In this document: piece by piece, positions 34,341-60,793 of the stretch | Numbering within the stretch: the stretch's first letter is position 1 | How the letters are laid out: the number at the start of each line of letters is the position of its first letter | DNA from: a virus | Strand: one strand, 5' to 3' | Length of the DNA: 64,000 bases | Virus record (IMG/VR): IMGVR_UViG_3300044633_003049 | Span: 147,785-211,784 of that record | Position numbers and translations under genes: made by a program | The notes under the pieces: model-generated | Seen by the model: the letters and a program-made list of their open reading frames with translations, nothing else | What the model was told of the DNA's origin: nothing | Database searches by the model: none

Positions 34341-34508
34341 TTAATTAGGATTTTCTAACTCTAATAAGAAGTTAATATAATATCTTCTAACATATATGGG
34401 CATAGATAGGATATCGCCATATGTAAACCCCTTTTTAATGAGGTATAAAATCTCGTCTAATTGATTTTTTTTATATTCCGTAGAAAGGTCGAAAAAACTC
34501 AACCCCAA
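34341..34508 (-). CDS. Small tail-assembly ORF in +1 frame after gp26 (frameshift extension or coupled gene)
   Basis: This ORF has no ATG and overlaps the end of the gp26-like gene in the +1 frame. From the TTG at 34508 it is 55 codons; the frame is open from 34526, with other TTGs at 34520, 34514 and 34502. The product reads FDLSTEYKKNQLDEILYLIK, then KGFTYGDILSMPIYVRRYYI. From memory this is the pattern (..I..L...GFTY.D+..MP.Y.R+.. N.L) of a short protein encoded between gp26 and downstream tail genes in many T4-like phages. It is made either by +1 frameshifting (candidate TTT TTT CGA at 34489-34497) or by restart at a TTG. The coding nature is well supported; the mechanism is open. Confidence 0.65.
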   Translation of the reverse strand: MGLSFFDLSTEYKKNQLDEILYLIKKGFTYGDILSMPIYVRRYYINFLLELENPN

Positions 34509-35220
34509 ATCCAATGTCAATTTGGACTATATCTCCTGATGGGGTGGTTACTGTTTGGGTTAAATCTAACCCTGGTTTATTATCTTTGATAAATTTTCTA
34601 AATTCTTGTGAATCTTTAATCGGCATATTCTCAACAAAGTTCCTAATGTTCATTTGGTCTTTGTTACCTGCAACCGTTTTAATCATAAATTCAAGTTGTT
34701 TTGTAACAATTGGAGCCACCCCATTACCATTCCAACTTTCCTTTATATCTTCAATTTCCTTTTCTTGTTTTTGAGTTAAAAACTTGAAGGTGATATCTAT
34801 TTTACTCTTTTCCATGTAATATTGATATTCACCATTACTATCTTCTTTCAAGTTAAAATCCTTCATCTTTAATTCAGATAAATCAATTTCAACCGTAAAT
34901 TGTTCTTGTGTCTTTGAGTCAGTTGTGGTTAAGTTATATATTGAACCAAAACCTGTATTTCTTAAAAATATAAGAATGGCTTGTCTATCTTCATCCACAA
35001 TATCATCTACTTGTAAATCTTTATCCAAAACCTTTCTTCTTAAAAGTTCATTGATAACACCGTTATTCGCAATTAAGTTTGGAGCAGAAAGAATATTTTC
35101 ATCTGCAGCAGTTAAATAAGCAACTCTTACTGATTTCTTTTTACTTGGGTAATGTATACCTCTACTTGGTAGTTCTACTACGTCGTATGCAATTGTTGGG
35201 TCTATTTTATATTCGTCCAT
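34471..35220 (-). CDS. 26: Baseplate hub assembly / tape-measure chaperone gp26-like
   Basis: A 249-residue protein with the N-terminal family signature VVELPSRGIHYPSKK, then VRVAYLTAADENIL, characteristic of T4-type baseplate protein gp26 (208 aa in T4). It acts in hub assembly and, by analogy with lambda G, in handling the tape measure. It ends at TAA 34471-34473, beyond which the +1 frame stays open for another 43 codons. No late box was seen directly before its start, and the tube terminator lies just upstream. Confidence 0.82.
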   Translation of the reverse strand: MDEYKIDPTIAYDVVELPSRGIHYPSKKKSVRVAYLTAADENILSAPNLIANNGVINELLRRKVLDKDLQVDDIVDEDRQAILIFLRNTGFGSIYNLTTTDSKTQEQFTVEIDLSELKMKDFNLKEDSNGEYQYYMEKSKIDITFKFLTQKQEKEIEDIKESWNGNGVAPIVTKQLEFMIKTVAGNKDQMNIRNFVENMPIKDSQEFRKFIKDNKPGLDLTQTVTTPSGDIVQIDIGFGVEFFRPFYGI

Positions 35221-35321: not shown

Positions 35322-35810
35322 TTAATAAACTTGGATACAACGGTCCATTCTTAATGAAGCGTCAATTGTTGCCAAATCATCTCTTGAGTAATCTAAATCA
35401 CCGAAGTTCAAACTTGTTAAGAAACAACCTTGTAAAATCCATTTTTCAACCACAACTCCCGTTGGGTCTAACATCTCCAATTCAATGTCTTTCTTATAAC
35501 CCGCAGCATATCCCATACGACCTGTAACTGACTCCGCATGTAAACGGAACCATTCCATAAGTGCTTGAGAAGCAGAAGGACCAATTGGGTCTTTAAATTG
35601 AACTTTAATCTCTTCCCACTCAAATTGACCAGCAACATAAGTTTTTGTGTTCAAGAAAGGAATCTCAACTGATTTAATTTTAGCAGATGGTCTCGCTGTG
35701 GAGAATACATACCACTCATTTATTCCTAAAGATGATGGAAATCTTAGGATAAATCTATTTTTTCTTTTCGGTTCGTAAGGAACCGGCATTTTCATTAATA
35801 AATCTGCCAT
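35322..35810 (-). CDS. 19: Tail tube protein gp19
   Basis: A 162-residue homologue of T4 gp19 (163 aa), the hexameric ring that stacks into the inner tube. It begins MADLLMKMPVPYEPKRKNRF. The body holds the family pattern IKSVEIPFLNTKTYVAGQFE, WEEIKVQFKDPIGPSAS and LQGCFLTSLNFGDLDYSRD. It forms a single-gene transcript: a 324-base leader with late boxes upstream and a strong terminator downstream, consistent with very high late expression. Confidence 0.93.
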   Translation of the reverse strand: MADLLMKMPVPYEPKRKNRFILRFPSSLGINEWYVFSTARPSAKIKSVEIPFLNTKTYVAGQFEWEEIKVQFKDPIGPSASQALMEWFRLHAESVTGRMGYAAGYKKDIELEMLDPTGVVVEKWILQGCFLTSLNFGDLDYSRDDLATIDASLRMDRCIQVY

Positions 35811-36134: not shown

Positions 36135-38966
36135 TTAGATATTGTCAAATGAAGCTCCTGTTGGAGTGATTACAAATTCCAAATCAATGAATTCTAAAGA
36201 ACGAGTTGGTTTGATATAAATCTTACCTCTTAATGTGTTAGCATCGATGTCCTCTGGATCATTAGATACACTCACACGGAAGTCATACAAACCTCTTTCT
36301 TTCTTAATTGATTCCAAGATAGGATTTACTAATCTTAAGAACTCTTGTCTTACTTGGTCGTCATTTTGTTCAAACAATAACCTTACAGCTACCGCAGAAA
36401 TCAATTTTCTAGCTCTTAATAATAATCTTCTTACGTTGATTCTATCTAAAGCCGACTCTCTAACTTGTAACGTTTTATTACCCCATATAATGGTACCTGT
36501 ATCAGAGAATGTTGCAATTGGGTTGATTCTCGCCTTATATAACTCATCTCTTTCGTCAAGAGTAAGTTTCTTTTGTGCTTTGATTGCGTTTACCAAACCT
36601 CTACTGTAACCCGCAACTGCGAACCAAGGATAAGATACGTTGTCAGTTAAGGCGATGTTCTTAACAACCTCACCTGTTGGTGGAATATATAATTGAGTTG
36701 CATTATCCGTGTCTCTTACTTGAATCCAAGGCCAATATGTGGCTGAATAGTTTGAGTCAACTGCGATACCGTCTAAATCGTCAATAACGTTAGATGCAAT
36801 AGTTTCATTTGGTGCTCCAATTATATAAATTGAATCCGCTCTATCAGTTTCAATCATGTCAATTGCTTGAGTTGTTAATGAACTATGGTCGTAGAAGTTA
36901 ATACCTGGAGTTGCAAATACGTTAATATCTACGGCCTCAGGATTTGCATATGTTTGAATACCTTCTAAATAAGCATAATAATCAGAGTTTCCATTTGCAG
37001 TGTCAAACAATCCACCATTTGTTGTAAGACCTGAAATATATGTTAATTTTCCAAATATATAACCGTCACCATATGTTCTTACTTGTCTGTAAATGTCCCA
37101 ACCATCAAAACCACCACATACGGCAAATGTAAATTTACGGAAGTTAATACTATCTAATTTACCTTTATCGGTACCTTCTAAATCATAAGGTGTTGTTTGG
37201 TACATTAATCCTGAAACTGTATTTCCAGTTATTGTAGCTGCGTTTATAGATAAGTGAAATCCGTCTGTTGATCCTTTTTGAGTTGCTTCTGTTGAACATT
37301 TATATTTAAACAAATCGGAGTCAAAATTAAAATTACCATCAGAAGATAAACCTAAAGATGTTTTTCTAAATTTATCACCATTACTTGTTATGTCATCATA
37401 AATTGTTTCACCAGAATCAAAAAATTCAGTTTTATAAAGAACACTACCTAATGTTGTTGAACCTGATAAAGTTGCATTTGTAAAACCTTTAAATCCTGCA
37501 GGAAATGCATTTGATGGTGCGTTAGAGTCCATAAGTAACATAATGTATTTAGAATTCAAAGTATACTCACCAGTTGATGTACCTATTTTTCTAGCAACAT
37601 ATCCTGCAACGTCTGGATTCATTGAACATCTTGAGAATTTTTCCAAAACAACCATGTTTTCATCGGAATCATTAAAATCTCTAACTAATATATCAAATTC
37701 ACCTGTTTCAATATTAATATTTTGAATTGTGATTTTAATTTCCTGATTTGCGGCGTTTCCGTCAGAAATTGTAATAACATCAAATAAATCATCAACTTTA
37801 CCACCACGAACTTCAGAAACCACAGTAGGTGACTTTGGTGTGTCCCAAGTATTTGAGAAGTTGTCACCTTCCGCATTATATACTTCAGTTAGGCTTAAAC
37901 CTCTAATTAAACCTTGATTATATAAGTTTTTTGTTAAGTTCGGATAAACTTCGTGAACATATAATGGAACATCGTTACCATCTTTATCATATGGACTTGT
38001 TCCTAAAACTTTAGTTATGTATTTTGTTGACGTTGAATCTAAACTACACGTGAAAACCTTAGCACCTGTAGTTCCTGTAACATAAATATTAAATTCCGAT
38101 AATGGGTCACTTGTTAACGTTGCCCCACTAATAGTAAAAGATGTGTTTCCAGTAACTTGAAAATTTAAAGATTCTTGTGAATAATTTCCTCTTGATCTTA
38201 ATGCCGCCATAACAATTTCCTTATCATATACTGAAGTTGCGGTATATGTATATTTTGTTGTGGTAAAATTCATTGAACTAGCAGCATAAACAAATAAGTA
38301 ACTATACACTTCGGTACCGTTAGTATTGGTAAACACGTTATTCCAATTTTTTATAGTTGCGGTTCCAATAGGACTTGTTTTTTGATTTCCCGTTAAACCT
38401 GATGTTGCTGATGATGGAACATTTCCAATTGTAAACCAATCACCTGTAGATAAACCGCTACCGTAATTAGTGACTATATAATTTGTAACCGTTGTACCAG
38501 TTGAATTGGTTTTACCAGATAATGAACTATAAAAAGTACTATATGTTGGGTTTACAATGTCCTCAGCTGTTGGTGTTGTAATACCTGTAGTTGAACTTGG
38601 AGTTTGTGTTAAGTCAACAGATATACCACCTATTGTTTTAATGCCGAATGTTTTTCCTGCTTTGTAACCTGTCTTACCTAATACTCTTGTTACAAATAAT
38701 TGATTTGACTCTTGTAAATAAGATTTAGCGACATAACCTAATTCATATTTTGGATTGCCAGCACCATCTTTTTCAGGTGAGGTTGGTCCGAAGTATGTTT
38801 TAAATTCGTCAAAATTTGAAATTAATATTGGTTCAAAAGCGGGACCTTTTAAGGTTTCACCCACTAATCCCAATGTTGTAACACCTATACTTTGTGCTAC
38901 GAATGTTAGATCTTTCTCTGATGTATAAACACCAGGAGACACGAAAACTCTGTTATTACTTGCCAT
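36135..38966 (-). CDS. 18: Tail sheath protein gp18
   Basis: A 943-residue contractile sheath subunit, much longer than T4 gp18 (659). The N-terminus VFVSPGVYTSEKDLTFVAQS, then GVTTLGLVGETLKGPAFEP, and TYFGPTSPE are classic. The conserved C-terminal core includes VNAIKAQKKLTLDERDELY, NPIATFSDTGTIIWGNKTLQ and the tube-binding end LRGKIYIKPTRSLEFIDLEF. The middle (~110-560) is Thr/Ser/Gly-rich and appears to hold extra surface domains compared with T4. It has its own promoter region and terminator, as expected for the most abundant tail protein. Confidence 0.93.
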   Translation of the reverse strand: MASNNRVFVSPGVYTSEKDLTFVAQSIGVTTLGLVGETLKGPAFEPILISNFDEFKTYFGPTSPEKDGAGNPKYELGYVAKSYLQESNQLFVTRVLGKTGYKAGKTFGIKTIGGISVDLTQTPSSTTGITTPTAEDIVNPTYSTFYSSLSGKTNSTGTTVTNYIVTNYGSGLSTGDWFTIGNVPSSATSGLTGNQKTSPIGTATIKNWNNVFTNTNGTEVYSYLFVYAASSMNFTTTKYTYTATSVYDKEIVMAALRSRGNYSQESLNFQVTGNTSFTISGATLTSDPLSEFNIYVTGTTGAKVFTCSLDSTSTKYITKVLGTSPYDKDGNDVPLYVHEVYPNLTKNLYNQGLIRGLSLTEVYNAEGDNFSNTWDTPKSPTVVSEVRGGKVDDLFDVITISDGNAANQEIKITIQNINIETGEFDILVRDFNDSDENMVVLEKFSRCSMNPDVAGYVARKIGTSTGEYTLNSKYIMLLMDSNAPSNAFPAGFKGFTNATLSGSTTLGSVLYKTEFFDSGETIYDDITSNGDKFRKTSLGLSSDGNFNFDSDLFKYKCSTEATQKGSTDGFHLSINAATITGNTVSGLMYQTTPYDLEGTDKGKLDSINFRKFTFAVCGGFDGWDIYRQVRTYGDGYIFGKLTYISGLTTNGGLFDTANGNSDYYAYLEGIQTYANPEAVDINVFATPGINFYDHSSLTTQAIDMIETDRADSIYIIGAPNETIASNVIDDLDGIAVDSNYSATYWPWIQVRDTDNATQLYIPPTGEVVKNIALTDNVSYPWFAVAGYSRGLVNAIKAQKKLTLDERDELYKARINPIATFSDTGTIIWGNKTLQVRESALDRINVRRLLLRARKLISAVAVRLLFEQNDDQVRQEFLRLVNPILESIKKERGLYDFRVSVSNDPEDIDANTLRGKIYIKPTRSLEFIDLEFVITPTGASFDNI

Positions 38967-39003
38967 TGATTTTTGTTTGGTTAAATTGTTTTTATTACTT
39001 ATC

Positions 39004-39012
39004 TAATAAATA
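39004..39012 (-). promoter_or_regulatory. Late-promoter-like box before sheath
   Basis: TATTTATTA on the coding strand, 37 bases before the sheath ATG. It shares a base with the inverted repeat at 39012-39032. Confidence 0.6.
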
Positions 39013-39080
39013 TCTTTGTTTTTACCAAAGATTTCCTAACTTTTATTAAAAAGATAGTTATTTATCTTTAATTATCTTTT
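39012..39080. promoter_or_regulatory. Cluster of ATCTTT/AAAGAT half-sites (candidate operator)
   Basis: Inverted repeat ATCTTTG/CAAAGAT (39012-39018 and 39026-39032) and inverted repeat AAAGATA/TATCTTT (39050-39056 and 39063-39069), plus a fifth TATCTTT at 39074-39080. All lie in the divergent gap between the sheath gene and a small plus-strand ribbon-helix-helix-like gene. One edge abuts the sheath late box and the other ends just before the small gene's ATG. Confidence 0.6.
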
Positions 39081-39082
39081 AT

Positions 39083-39241
39083 ATGGAAAACAAACAAAAA
39101 AACGTTAAAATAGGTCAGAAACACCACGAAATGTTAAAAAATTTTTGTGATAAAAATGGATTAAAAATTTATAAAGTATTGGAAAAACACATTGAGGAAC
39201 TTTGTAAACCTAAAAAGAAGGACATTTACGGAGATGATTAG
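39083..39241 (+). CDS. Ribbon-helix-helix-like small regulator, 52 aa
   Basis: A 52-codon plus-strand gene embedded in an otherwise minus-strand tail region. The protein has an N-terminal basic strand (KNVKIGQ), a helix (KHHEMLKNFCDKNGL) and a second helix (KIYKVLEKHIEELC). This is the strand-helix-helix layout and length of Arc/MetJ-type DNA-binding dimers (Arc: 53 aa). The tail is basic (KPKKKDIYGDD). Five ATCTTT half-sites lie directly upstream. Its last 4 bases overlap the convergent gene. The fold is inferred by eye; a role as autorepressor and modulator of the sheath promoter is a hypothesis. Confidence 0.65.
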   Translation: MENKQKNVKIGQKHHEMLKNFCDKNGLKIYKVLEKHIEELCKPKKKDIYGDD

Positions 39242-39741
39242 TATAGATAAGATATACTAATTTTTGACCCAACTTTAGGATTGGAGAGATATGTAATTTC
39301 ATCGTCTCCCGTAATCTCAAACCCAACTGACTCTTCTTCAGCTAATCCATTGGTTTCAACTGTTATTAAACTATTGATGTAATTACTTAAGTTAAACACC
39401 GTTGATGTAGAGTAAATAAACTCTTCTTTTTCATATTGTAATAATTTACCCTTATTATCTAATATTACACTATTAATTCCTTTATAAAATTGTACCGTTA
39501 TTATTGAGTTATTTAACGGAGGTTCAATAAAAGTAATCGTACTTGTAAAGTTTATAAACGTAAAACTTAAATCTCTTATTTGACCAATACCGTTCATTGA
39601 AACTGAAAATAAGGTTCCGATATTAGTTCCAACACTAAAATTAGTTTGTGTTCCGTCCGCAACAAAACTGACCGTTGTTATATTAATCGGCATGTTTTGA
39701 CTCTGACTTGAAACGACATTATCTTTTATAAATTCGTACAT
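39238..39741 (-). CDS. Tail-completion-region protein, paralogue of the neighbouring C-terminal domain, 167 aa
   Basis: A 167-residue protein that matches the last ~170 residues of the gene upstream. Both begin M(Y/F)EFIKDN. Both carry (A/V)DG(T/I)QT.F.VG..IGTLF.V..N, a (Y/F)YK..NS.I.D/G..G....(Y/F).+EEF segment, SL/VITVE.NGLAE, and end in ISVGYLF or ISISYLY. It looks like a duplicated beta-sandwich domain freed as its own gene. The function is unknown; a neck or sheath-terminator decoration is plausible. A late box sits 13 bases before the ATG, inside the upstream gene's end. Confidence 0.75.
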   Translation of the reverse strand: MYEFIKDNVVSSQSQNMPINITTVSFVADGTQTNFSVGTNIGTLFSVSMNGIGQIRDLSFTFINFTSTITFIEPPLNNSIITVQFYKGINSVILDNKGKLLQYEKEEFIYSTSTVFNLSNYINSLITVETNGLAEEESVGFEITGDDEITYLSNPKVGSKISISYLY

Positions 39742-39751
39742 AGATTATAAT

Positions 39752-41032
39752 TTAAAATAAATATCCTACCGATATATTTGAATTTATTGATGGTCTATCC
39801 GATAAAATAATATACGAGTTATCATCTGAAACAATAAATCCGATACCTTGTTGTTCTGCCAATCCATTAATCTCAACTGTAACAACACTATTAATCATTT
39901 CATTTGTATCAAACATTGGTCTATTATTGGTTGGTGGGTCAAAAAAAGATCCCGAACCTGTGAATTGAAACTCTTCTCTAACAAAACTAAAAATTGTACC
40001 TGATGTTCCTACTATTCTACTATTTTTACTTTTATAATAAACAATGGTGAGTTTACTTCCGGCGGTTGGGATATATGGAGAAACAAATTCTATTTTTGAA
40101 GTGTAAGTAATATGTAAATAATTTGTATTTTTTGTTTGTAATACATCATTTACATAAACACCGAATAATGTACCAATACTTTCACCAACATCAAAAACAG
40201 TTTGAATTCCGTCAACTGCTAAATTTACAGTTTGTATTATATCATTAGTATTAACAACTTTATTGACACCAAATTTGGGATTGTCTTTTATAAACTCAAA
40301 CATGGTAAATAATCTATTAATGGCGGGTTTCACTTCAAACTCCTCACTATCTATCAAATAACCTAACATTGTAAATTGGTAATTCTGAACGTAAAATCTA
40401 CGTCCGTCAATCGTTTCAATTGGACTATTATCTTCAATCTTATCAAGAACAATAGGAATGTAATGTCCTTTAATCATTGTGTAATCTTGTCTTGACGCAA
40501 AGTGACGTAATATGATTTTATTAAACTTGTTTAAATCTCTAAATTTATTACATATAATTGTTACATCATAAGTAATATCCACAGGGATAGGTTGTGGGAT
40601 TGTATATATATCCGCACCTAATTGTGAACCATTCCAATTCGGAACTGATGCATAATAAACTTGGTATCTATCGGGTATTGTTCTTTGAACTGCCGGATTT
40701 GTTCCAAATTGAACGTCAGGTTTTCTAATGGTTGCAATAAATGGAAGTTGCATGTTCCCGTCTTCATCACTAAACGACCAATTCTGCATAAACTCTCCCC
40801 ATCTTTGTATTGTAAGAATTTTATTTATAATTGGGATTTGTTTACCGTCAGTTACAACCTTAAATGTTTTTGTAACATAATCTAACATACCCCTATCTAA
40901 ATCATCGTGTAATATAGAATCGGGAAGATTCGTATCTGATTTGGTAATATTATCCAAAAGTTCCTGTCTCCTTTTAGTGAGTTCAGAACCTTTATAGATT
41001 TCAATATTTGTTTTTCTTTTAGGTATTCCCAT
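39752..41032 (-). CDS. Tail completion / sheath stabiliser candidate (gp15-like) with duplicated C-terminal domain
   Basis: About 426 residues. I take ATG 41032 (MGIPKRKTNIEIYKGSE) because the upstream stop is at 41034-41036; an in-frame start at 41104 would overlap that gene by 71 bases. The N-terminal ~245 residues include PQPIPVDITYDVTIICNKFR, then NKIILRHFASRQDYTMIKGH. This strand pattern is seen in gp15/gp3-type tail completion proteins. The C-terminal ~170 residues are a separate beta domain, duplicated in the next gene. Order (this gene, then sheath, then tube) parallels T4 15-18-19. The gp15 label is tentative. Confidence 0.6.
   Translation of the reverse strand: MGIPKRKTNIEIYKGSELTKRRQELLDNITKSDTNLPDSILHDDLDRGMLDYVTKTFKVVTDGKQIPIINKILTIQRWGEFMQNWSFSDEDGNMQLPFIATIRKPDVQFGTNPAVQRTIPDRYQVYYASVPNWNGSQLGADIYTIPQPIPVDITYDVTIICNKFRDLNKFNKIILRHFASRQDYTMIKGHYIPIVLDKIEDNSPIETIDGRRFYVQNYQFTMLGYLIDSEEFEVKPAINRLFTMFEFIKDNPKFGVNKVVNTNDIIQTVNLAVDGIQTVFDVGESIGTLFGVYVNDVLQTKNTNYLHITYTSKIEFVSPYIPTAGSKLTIVYYKSKNSRIVGTSGTIFSFVREEFQFTGSGSFFDPPTNNRPMFDTNEMINSVVTVEINGLAEQQGIGFIVSDDNSYIILSDRPSINSNISVGYLF
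39755..39763 (-). promoter_or_regulatory. Late-promoter-like box overlapping the end of the gp15-like gene
   Basis: TATTTATTT on the coding strand, 13 bases before the ATG of the 167-aa gene. It is part of the final codons (Tyr-Leu-Phe) of the gp15-like gene. Confidence 0.4.
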
Positions 41033-41033
41033 G

Positions 41034-41546
41034 TTATACTCCTCTAAATGTATTGTCTTGTACCGCAGTACATACAATGTTTCTATAATATGGTTTGTAA
41101 CCAAACATATTATGTTTATTATCTGATGTTACCTTTCCGTCATTTGAAACATTATAATATCTTGTTCTTGTTTCAGATTCAGGATATCCAATAAAATCTC
41201 CGTATTTAATGTCAACCTTCAATTCTTCTAAATGTTTTATATATACCGATAATGTCATATTACCTGGTTCGTTGTATCTTAATAACCCACCTTTATATGT
41301 ACTATTCTTTGGTTCTTCTATTTTAACTAACGCATAAAACTCAATAGGTGGGAAATATTTAATTTCATCCACTCCAACTTCGGCGTAAACGTCGTCGTTT
41401 TCTGTTTTTTGTTTATCTACACGATATAGTACCAATTTTATCCCCAAATCACCATGAAGGTACTCCTGACCCATTTGAATATTTAAATCAAAGTCGTCTT
41501 GAGAAAGGAATTTGGACATTCTCGTAATAGGTAGTTTATTATTCAT
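41034..41546 (-). CDS. Neck / head-tail connector candidate (gp14-like), 170 aa
   Basis: I prefer the second ATG (41546, MNNKLPITRMSKFLSQ), since the first (41552) lies within the TATTTATAT box. The protein has VGVDEIKYFPPIEFYALVKI and KYGDFIGYPESETRTRYYNV, then DNKHNMFGYKPYYRNIVCTA. A conserved (Y)GD.I.....S...Y.V...D... motif is typical of T4-like gp14/head-closure proteins, though T4 gp14 is longer (256). The order 14-15-18-19 supports the call. Family certainty is modest; the gene itself is solid. Confidence 0.5.
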   Translation of the reverse strand: MNNKLPITRMSKFLSQDDFDLNIQMGQEYLHGDLGIKLVLYRVDKQKTENDDVYAEVGVDEIKYFPPIEFYALVKIEEPKNSTYKGGLLRYNEPGNMTLSVYIKHLEELKVDIKYGDFIGYPESETRTRYYNVSNDGKVTSDNKHNMFGYKPYYRNIVCTAVQDNTFRGV

Positions 41547-60094: not shown

Positions 60095-60793
60095 ATGCCG
60101 AGACCACGAACCCAAAAAATATACTTTGGTGAGGATCAAGAAAAAGCCGTCGTTAATTACCTAGAGAGTACTGACGAAGACGAAAGAAACAAAATATTCA
60201 ATGAGTTTTTAAGAGAACCATTAGTTATTATGGTTGAAAGTATTATTAGAAGATATAAATTATATAGGAAGGATATGGAATTTGAAGAAATTCACACCGA
60301 CACTATGTCTTTTTTAATCACCAAAATTAATAAATTTGACCACACAAAGAACACTAAAGCGTATTCATACTTTGGAACTATCTGTAAAAACTACCTTATG
60401 GGAGCAATACAGAAAGACACTAAAGAACAGAATAGACAAGTATCTTATGATGACATATCATCTGACATTGAAGATAGAAAAGATTTGTCTTATGTTATTG
60501 ATGAACATATTATTGATTATCAAAGTGTTATAATTAAATTAACCATTTCTTTAGAAAACTTTATTGAGAAGGAAAACCTAACGGAAAACGAACAAAAATT
60601 GGGATATGCCTTGTTAGAGATTTTTAGCAATTTTGATAAAATATTCCAAGTTGGGGATGGTAATAAATTCAATAAGAACCTTATCTTACTCTCATTACGA
60701 GAAATGACCTCATTATCCACAAAAGAGATTAGAGTATCCCTAAAACGTTTTAAAAAGATGTATGACGGTATTTTGGTTGGATTTTTAGAATAA
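60095..60793 (+). CDS. 55: Late sigma factor, gp55-like
   Basis: A 232-residue sigma-region-2-like protein. The helix pair FLITKINKFDHTKNTKAYSY, then FGTICKNYLMGAIQKDTKEQ (~73-112), matches regions 2.2-2.4 of phage sigma factors (AYSYFG.I.+NY), which melt and read the -10 box. The N-terminus is PRPRTQKIYFGEDQEKAVVN, and the C-terminal half is helical without a clear region 4. T4 gp55 (185 aa) likewise lacks region 4 and directs late transcription with the sliding clamp. This is the natural reader of the TATTTATWD boxes, an inference. Confidence 0.75.
   Translation: MPRPRTQKIYFGEDQEKAVVNYLESTDEDERNKIFNEFLREPLVIMVESIIRRYKLYRKDMEFEEIHTDTMSFLITKINKFDHTKNTKAYSYFGTICKNYLMGAIQKDTKEQNRQVSYDDISSDIEDRKDLSYVIDEHIIDYQSVIIKLTISLENFIEKENLTENEQKLGYALLEIFSNFDKIFQVGDGNKFNKNLILLSLREMTSLSTKEIRVSLKRFKKMYDGILVGFLE

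Follow-up and report, generated by a model that had tools for sequence, protein, structure and literature searches.

A conserved gene for a predicted ribbon-helix-helix protein faces the tail sheath gene of large T4-type phages and may repress both itself and sheath late transcription

Autorepressors of the ribbon-helix-helix (RHH) type are well known as a kind of protein. Arc, a 53-residue phage repressor, serves the immunity region of the temperate Salmonella phage P22, and plasmid RHH regulators such as CopG/ORF56, ParG and omega, which control copy number or partition, autoregulate through iterated half-sites. The late genes of T4-type phages, on the other side, are viewed as one regulon, jointly switched on by gp55, gp33 and the clamp gp45, with TATAAATA as the late box of T4. 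To our knowledge, no DNA-binding repressor acts specifically on gene 18 in T4, and none was found in the openly licensed papers searched. The closest functional precedent for the locus described here is SvtR of the Sulfolobus virus SIRV1 (PMC5569661). This RHH protein represses both its own gene and a tail-fibre gene, binds best at the promoter of the latter and has been proposed to prevent premature expression of it. Both SvtR and, by prediction, the protein described here are small viral RHH proteins, and putative sites of the latter lie at its own gene and, in one of two clades, at a gene for a virion structural protein. SvtR differs, however, in belonging to an archaeal rod-shaped virus with TBP/TFB promoters and in binding its target at a distance of about 80 nt from the promoter elements, and the likeness is one of arrangement, not of demonstrated common descent.

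The locus lies in a 64,000-nucleotide stretch of viral DNA (the window), which forms part of the 211,784-bp virus record IMGVR_UViG_3300044633_003049. A 52-codon open reading frame (ORF) on the plus strand (39083..39241; product MENKQKNVKIGQKHHEMLKNFCDKNGLKIYKVLEKHIEELCKPKKKDIYGDD), encoding the predicted Arc-like RHH regulator, is separated by a 116-nt intergenic region from the divergent tail sheath gene on the minus strand (36135..38966; 943 aa; PF04984 at E 1.4e-11, PF17482, and phrog_23 at E 5.6e-65), which is the proposed target of the regulator. The tail tube gene (35322-35810) comes next after the sheath gene, with a baseplate-hub gene (34471-35220) beyond it. A first-pass annotation of the sequence had described a lone plus-strand ORF amid minus-strand genes, and both immediate neighbours, the sheath gene at 36135-38966 and an ORF at 39238-39741, are indeed on the minus strand; the position at which it let the feature begin, 39012, is the start of the operator, the gene proper beginning at 39083. 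Elsewhere in the window, a gp55-like late sigma factor is encoded on the plus strand (60095..60793), matching phrog_234 ('late sigma transcription factor') at E 4.7e-4, or at 2.5e-5 by genome search, and it probably recognises the late boxes discussed below. The PHROG match of this protein is weak but specific.

A search for related sheaths gave 80 viral-contig loci, 69 of them with enough upstream DNA to be tested, and the same ORF is divergent from the sheath gene in 66 of these 69 (the exceptions are L013, L034 and L056). The encoded proteins in related loci have about 47-59 aa, and the start codon lies roughly 114-137 nt from that of the sheath. Purifying selection on the ORF is evident from a median dN/dS of 0.12 and a maximum of 0.41 (276 pairs, drawn from ORFs of exactly 52 codons only). 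When searched with the protein family rather than with the sheath, at least 449 contigs encode a member, and a divergent sheath gene stands beside the gene in all 80 of the closest homologues (the best 80 of these contigs). A search of 84,980 bacterial and archaeal genomes gave no match to the protein, and neither did one of 50,697 phage records for cultured relatives, even at E<=1; two phages with related sheaths, Microcystis phage Mel-JY01 and Flavobacterium phage immuto, have no RHH gene at the sheath-adjacent position. Taken together, the conserved ORF, its fixed position divergent to the sheath, the purifying selection and the lack of matches in the genomes and phage records searched indicate that the gene is real, belongs to an uncultured phage lineage and is tied to the sheath.

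An alignment of 57 family members was used both for AlphaFold2 and for residue conservation. The model has helices at residues 12-25 and 29-41, preceded by an extended segment at 5-11, with a mean pLDDT of 83 and a monomer pTM of 0.50; no strand is shown, as expected of a monomer because the ribbon requires dimerisation. In the PDB, Foldseek ranks P22 Arc first (1b28; probability 0.94, TM 0.64, 14% identity), and the other leading matches are mostly RHH proteins, among them ORF56, SvtR (rank 5), CopASO, CopG and PutA, with no E-value below 0.001, as is usual for 50 residues. Among PHROG families, phrog_582 ('Arc-like repressor') is matched by 56 of the 57 members and phrog_3180 by 52 (E<=0.1), the best members reaching 4.1e-5 and 3.3e-5, respectively, and the window protein 0.005. 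The leading Pfam families for the members are RepB-RCR_reg, ParG and Omega_Repress, all of which we take to be RHH families, with best E-values of 5.9e-5 (PF10723) and 1.1e-4 (ParG); ORF56 is likewise among the weak family matches, and the window protein itself stays below every Pfam cut-off (15.2 bits for PF10723 vs a cut-off of 21).

At the residue level, K6, N7 and K9 are invariant and I10 and S11 nearly so in the 57 members, with the polar alternation expected of a DNA-facing ribbon. Length and layout, about 45-55 residues with an N-terminal strand or extended segment followed by two helices, are also those of RHH proteins. The motif between the helices in this fold is usually G-x-S/T/N (PMC2812701); here, the loop reads G-L-K, with G26 and K28 invariant in the 57 members (G-x-K). 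This loop and the sub-threshold Pfam score depart from the RHH norm and, like the modest pTM and the missing strand of the monomer model, count against the RHH reading. Structure prediction had been named in the first-pass annotation as a check on its Arc-like reading, and the predicted fold of the 52-aa protein is RHH with Arc as its best match. The protein resembles Arc in size, in predicted fold and in its PHROG family, whereas the two are only 14% identical and the gene described here adjoins a late promoter of a tail gene in a T4-type phage, for which the searches made gave no sign of lysogeny. The same predicted fold and weak sequence-profile matches also link it to the plasmid regulators, none of which, however, is known to be associated with a tail sheath gene.

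Between the two divergent genes, the half-site ATCTTT/AAAGAT occurs in five exact copies (39012-39017, 39027-39032, 39050-39055, 39064-39069 and 39074-39079), arranged as two inverted pairs plus a fifth copy that repeats the fourth in tandem, ten bases further on. All five had been recognised in the first-pass annotation, over 69 bases by its count and 68 by ours (39012-39079), as had the base, 39012, that the first half-site has in common with the sheath late box. Only 0.34 copies would be expected in the 116-nt intergenic region, and because none of 20,000 dinucleotide-preserving shuffles attains five, the cluster is not a product of chance. No 6-mer family with at least three different letters reaches that number in 5,000 shuffles, and the cluster is the densest of the 64-kb window, any other 69-nt stretch holding at most two half-sites.

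Putative operator A, the inverted repeat ATCTTT-N9-AAAGAT (39012..39032), stands directly upstream of the sheath late box, and its left and right halves are exact in 34 and 38 of 39 distinct relatives, respectively. Towards the RHH gene, it is followed by putative operator B, an inverted half-site AAAGAT (39050..39055; exact in 19/39, GATA core in 31/39), by C1, ATCTTT (39064..39069; exact in 19/39, TATC core in 33/39), which overlaps the candidate late box of the RHH gene, and by C2, ATCTTT (39074..39079; exact in 15/39, TATC core in 36/39), which is 10 nt from C1 and just before the start codon. Many relatives have a third tandem copy at the same 10-nt step. Across the 39 distinct relatives, identity is 90.6% at half-site positions vs 74.2% in the remaining intergenic sequence without the box; the half-sites of A, at 98%, are the most conserved part of the region, and the 9-nt spacer between them is 83% conserved, more than a bare pair of half-sites would need. 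The first-pass annotation had staked its proposal on the ORF and the half-sites being conserved in relatives, and both are kept.

The two-half-site arrangements A, B and C each have a single exact match in the 211,784-bp record. In 11 related records (11-287 kb), the exact A pair is found at the sheath promoter in 10, L056 being the one without it, and elsewhere only one extra exact copy occurs, in the 287-kb record. A wider regulon within the phage was ruled out by the uniqueness of these exact arrangements and by the near restriction of A to the sheath promoter in other records. The Bacteroidota -7 element is TAnnTTTG, and TATCTTTG was considered as such an element and rejected: TAnnTTTG shows hardly any enrichment upstream of ORFs (0.99 vs 0.79 per kb), and copies are found on both strands.

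As in the gp55/gp33/gp45-dependent late transcription of T4, an AT-only 8-bp late box and an encoded gp55-like sigma factor are found here. Unlike T4, in which the box is TATAAATA, the box in coding orientation is here the reverse complement, TATTTATA, which precedes 24 ORFs against 2.6 expected, its own reverse complement preceding 8. The cultured Flavobacterium phage immuto has TATTTATA before 19 of 53 CDS, vs 8 for the reverse complement, and the genes so preceded include those for sheath, tube, hub, tape measure, terL and gp20. The late promoter box of the sheath gene, TATTTATT, is at 39005..39012 on the minus strand, and its plus-strand ATAAATA core is kept in all 39 distinct relatives. 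Read on the plus strand, this box gives the T4 consensus TATAAATA, which would point it at the RHH gene; this orientation was rejected, since the enriched coding-orientation box is TATTTATA. For the RHH gene, the candidate late box predicted from the sequence is TATTTATC at 39059..39066 on the plus strand, and a TATTTAT[A/T] box occupies the corresponding place in most relatives of a second clade described below. Among 41 late-type boxes upstream of ORFs, the sheath box is the only one with two half-sites within 40 nt upstream (0/40 others). Start sites were placed by assuming T4 spacing, with the box at -13 to -6. If this spacing is valid, sheath transcription would start near 38999, with site A at about -13 to -33, and transcription of the RHH gene from its candidate box would begin at about 39072, so that B, C1 and C2 would span about -22 to +8. 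Many late-type boxes in the window and in loci L084-L091 begin just 11-15 nt before the start codon, and the mRNAs would therefore be nearly leaderless if T4 spacing holds.

The second clade comprises loci whose sheaths are 43-45% identical to a main-clade sheath. In 70 of its 72 loci the RHH gene is divergent to the sheath gene (the start codon could be placed in 68; the exceptions are L244 and L336), and the conserved ribbon residues (K6, N7, K9, I10 and S11) are present as well. On the gene side, the TATTTAT[A/T] box is directly followed by AGTAGGAAAAAATTCTACCTTTTTTCTACC, and the operator plan is common to both clades, with one inverted half-site followed by direct copies in tandem at a spacing of about one helical turn. 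The half-site itself differs by one base, TATCTTT in the main clade becoming TACCTTT in the second, so that TAYCTTT spans both; L240, a member of the second clade by its sheath, has TATCTT sites. The second-clade operator pattern was found at the RHH locus in all six records tested, with matches elsewhere at two mismatches only and none at 0-1. The persistence of the same gene-side plan indicates that operator and protein have long remained together. A link between ribbon residues and the changed half-site was sought by eye in the two clades, and no simple one was found. The second-clade sheath promoter has no TACCTTT site; it has a conserved CAAAAAACT, whose offset from the box equals that of the right half of site A (for example, in L247). 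Binding-site-like repeats are thus present on both promoters in the main clade and only on the gene's own promoter in the second.

Losses of the gene provide a natural test of these sites. In all five relatives without the gene beside the sheath (L013, L034, L056, L244 and L336), the gene-side sites are gone. Site A is degenerate in L056 and intact in L013 and L034, whose nearest RHH-bearing relatives have sheaths 82% and 77% identical, respectively; no RHH gene was found elsewhere in the L013, L034 and L056 contigs, which are fragments of 11-83 kb. The retention of site A in L013 and L034 is the strongest point against A being an operator of the RHH protein only.

From the gene, its conservation, the predicted fold and the positions of the sites, all obtained by computation, we infer a circuit in which the 52-aa protein would dimerise and bind ATCTTT half-sites (TAYCTTT across clades), probably cooperatively. 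At B, C1 and C2, which cover its own promoter, it would repress its own gene. At the inverted pair A, which abuts the -10-like sheath late box, it would block late RNA polymerase, and sheath protein would thereby be delayed or limited relative to other late proteins, with the avoidance of premature polysheath as a possible benefit. An RHH autorepressor that also represses sheath late transcription is, as a whole, the reading we consider moderately probable on the sequence evidence. Its parts differ in strength: autoregulation is well supported and very likely, because the gene-side sites vanish with the gene and their plan persists in the second clade, and binding to the sheath late promoter in the main clade, though still likely, is less secure because A is kept in L013 and L034 and absent from the second clade. 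Of the first-pass proposal of a repressor of itself and the sheath, self-control is therefore well supported, and sheath control is only probable, A being unique among the 41 late-type promoters but retained without the gene and lacking a second-clade equivalent; repression is what we infer in both cases.

The same retention favors a narrower role, in which the RHH protein is an autorepressor only and site A is a sheath-promoter element read by polymerase, by a late co-activator or by another regulator, its likeness to the operator borrowed or coincidental. This role would also fit the fairly conserved spacer of A, and the second clade, in which CAAAAAACT takes the same offset at a sheath promoter with no operator-like site and is found upstream of the sheath late box in the geneless L244 and L336, too. 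Nevertheless, in 34-38 of 39 distinct relatives the box adjoins two perfect operator half-sites in inverted order. The other 40 late-type boxes each have fewer than two half-sites, the exact pair occurs essentially nowhere else, and we regard the narrower role as rather unlikely. Less likely again is that the protein represses itself and activates the sheath late promoter from just upstream of the -10 box, as T4 MotA does from near -30 of middle promoters. The placement of site A upstream of the box, not over the start site, and its unmatched conservation agree with activation; yet a dimer on a site that shares a base with the box would crowd polymerase, the box stays intact in relatives that lack the gene, and the RHH proteins matched here (Arc, CopG, omega and SvtR) are mostly repressors.

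Two further explanations seem to us very improbable. The repeats could form an RNA or DNA structure, such as a hairpin or terminator, instead of protein operators, and site A is able to form a 7-bp hairpin, with a z-score of -2.0 for the minus-strand RNA. However, its arms hardly vary and so offer no compensatory change, the sole varying pair being kept in just 30 of 39; A lies upstream of the presumed sheath start and hence outside the transcript from it; and there is no Rfam match, while the tandem direct C1 and C2 are unable to pair with each other. Equally remote is a role unconnected with the sheath, either as an orphan antitoxin or as a regulator of copy number or partition like those of plasmids (CopG/ParG/omega-like), at which the weak family matches to RepB-RCR_reg, ParG, Omega_Repress and ORF56 might hint. 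Against this, tail genes flank the gene with no toxin or ParA alongside, and the gene is tied to the sheath at every locus checked (the best 80 of at least 449) and was not found in the bacterial and archaeal genomes searched.

Returning to the favored dual repressor, the back-to-back gene with repeats on both promoters suggests dedicated on/off control of one structural gene. The openly licensed papers searched describe neither this RHH family nor its constant pairing with the sheath gene, nor a gene-specific operator at a late structural promoter of the T4 type. The chances are about even that the locus is a dedicated, deeply conserved negative-feedback switch of large T4-type phages, in which an RHH protein made from a late-type promoter represses itself and the sheath atop gp55-type late transcription. 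If true, a sheath-specific repressor in hundreds of phages, maintained down to a sheath identity of about 44%, would mean that the amount or timing of sheath requires separate regulation. Produced by itself, T4 gp18 assembles into polysheaths (PMC3004832), a plausible reason for holding the sheath back. With a 52-aa protein and an operator of less than 90 bp, the idea is directly testable, and the different half-sites of the two clades supply a built-in specificity contrast.

Two minor observations concern the surroundings of the intergenic region. Just past the presumed sheath start, AATAAAA at 38990-38996 on the minus strand is nearly invariant in relatives and enriched upstream of ORFs genome-wide, and it is perhaps an early transcribed or translation-start element. 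On the other flank, the 167-aa protein encoded beside the RHH gene (39238-39741, minus strand) resembles the C-terminal third of the 450-aa protein encoded upstream at 39752-41104 on the same strand (37% identity, E 6e-32), and its gene is a diverged partial tandem duplicate of the gene for the latter.
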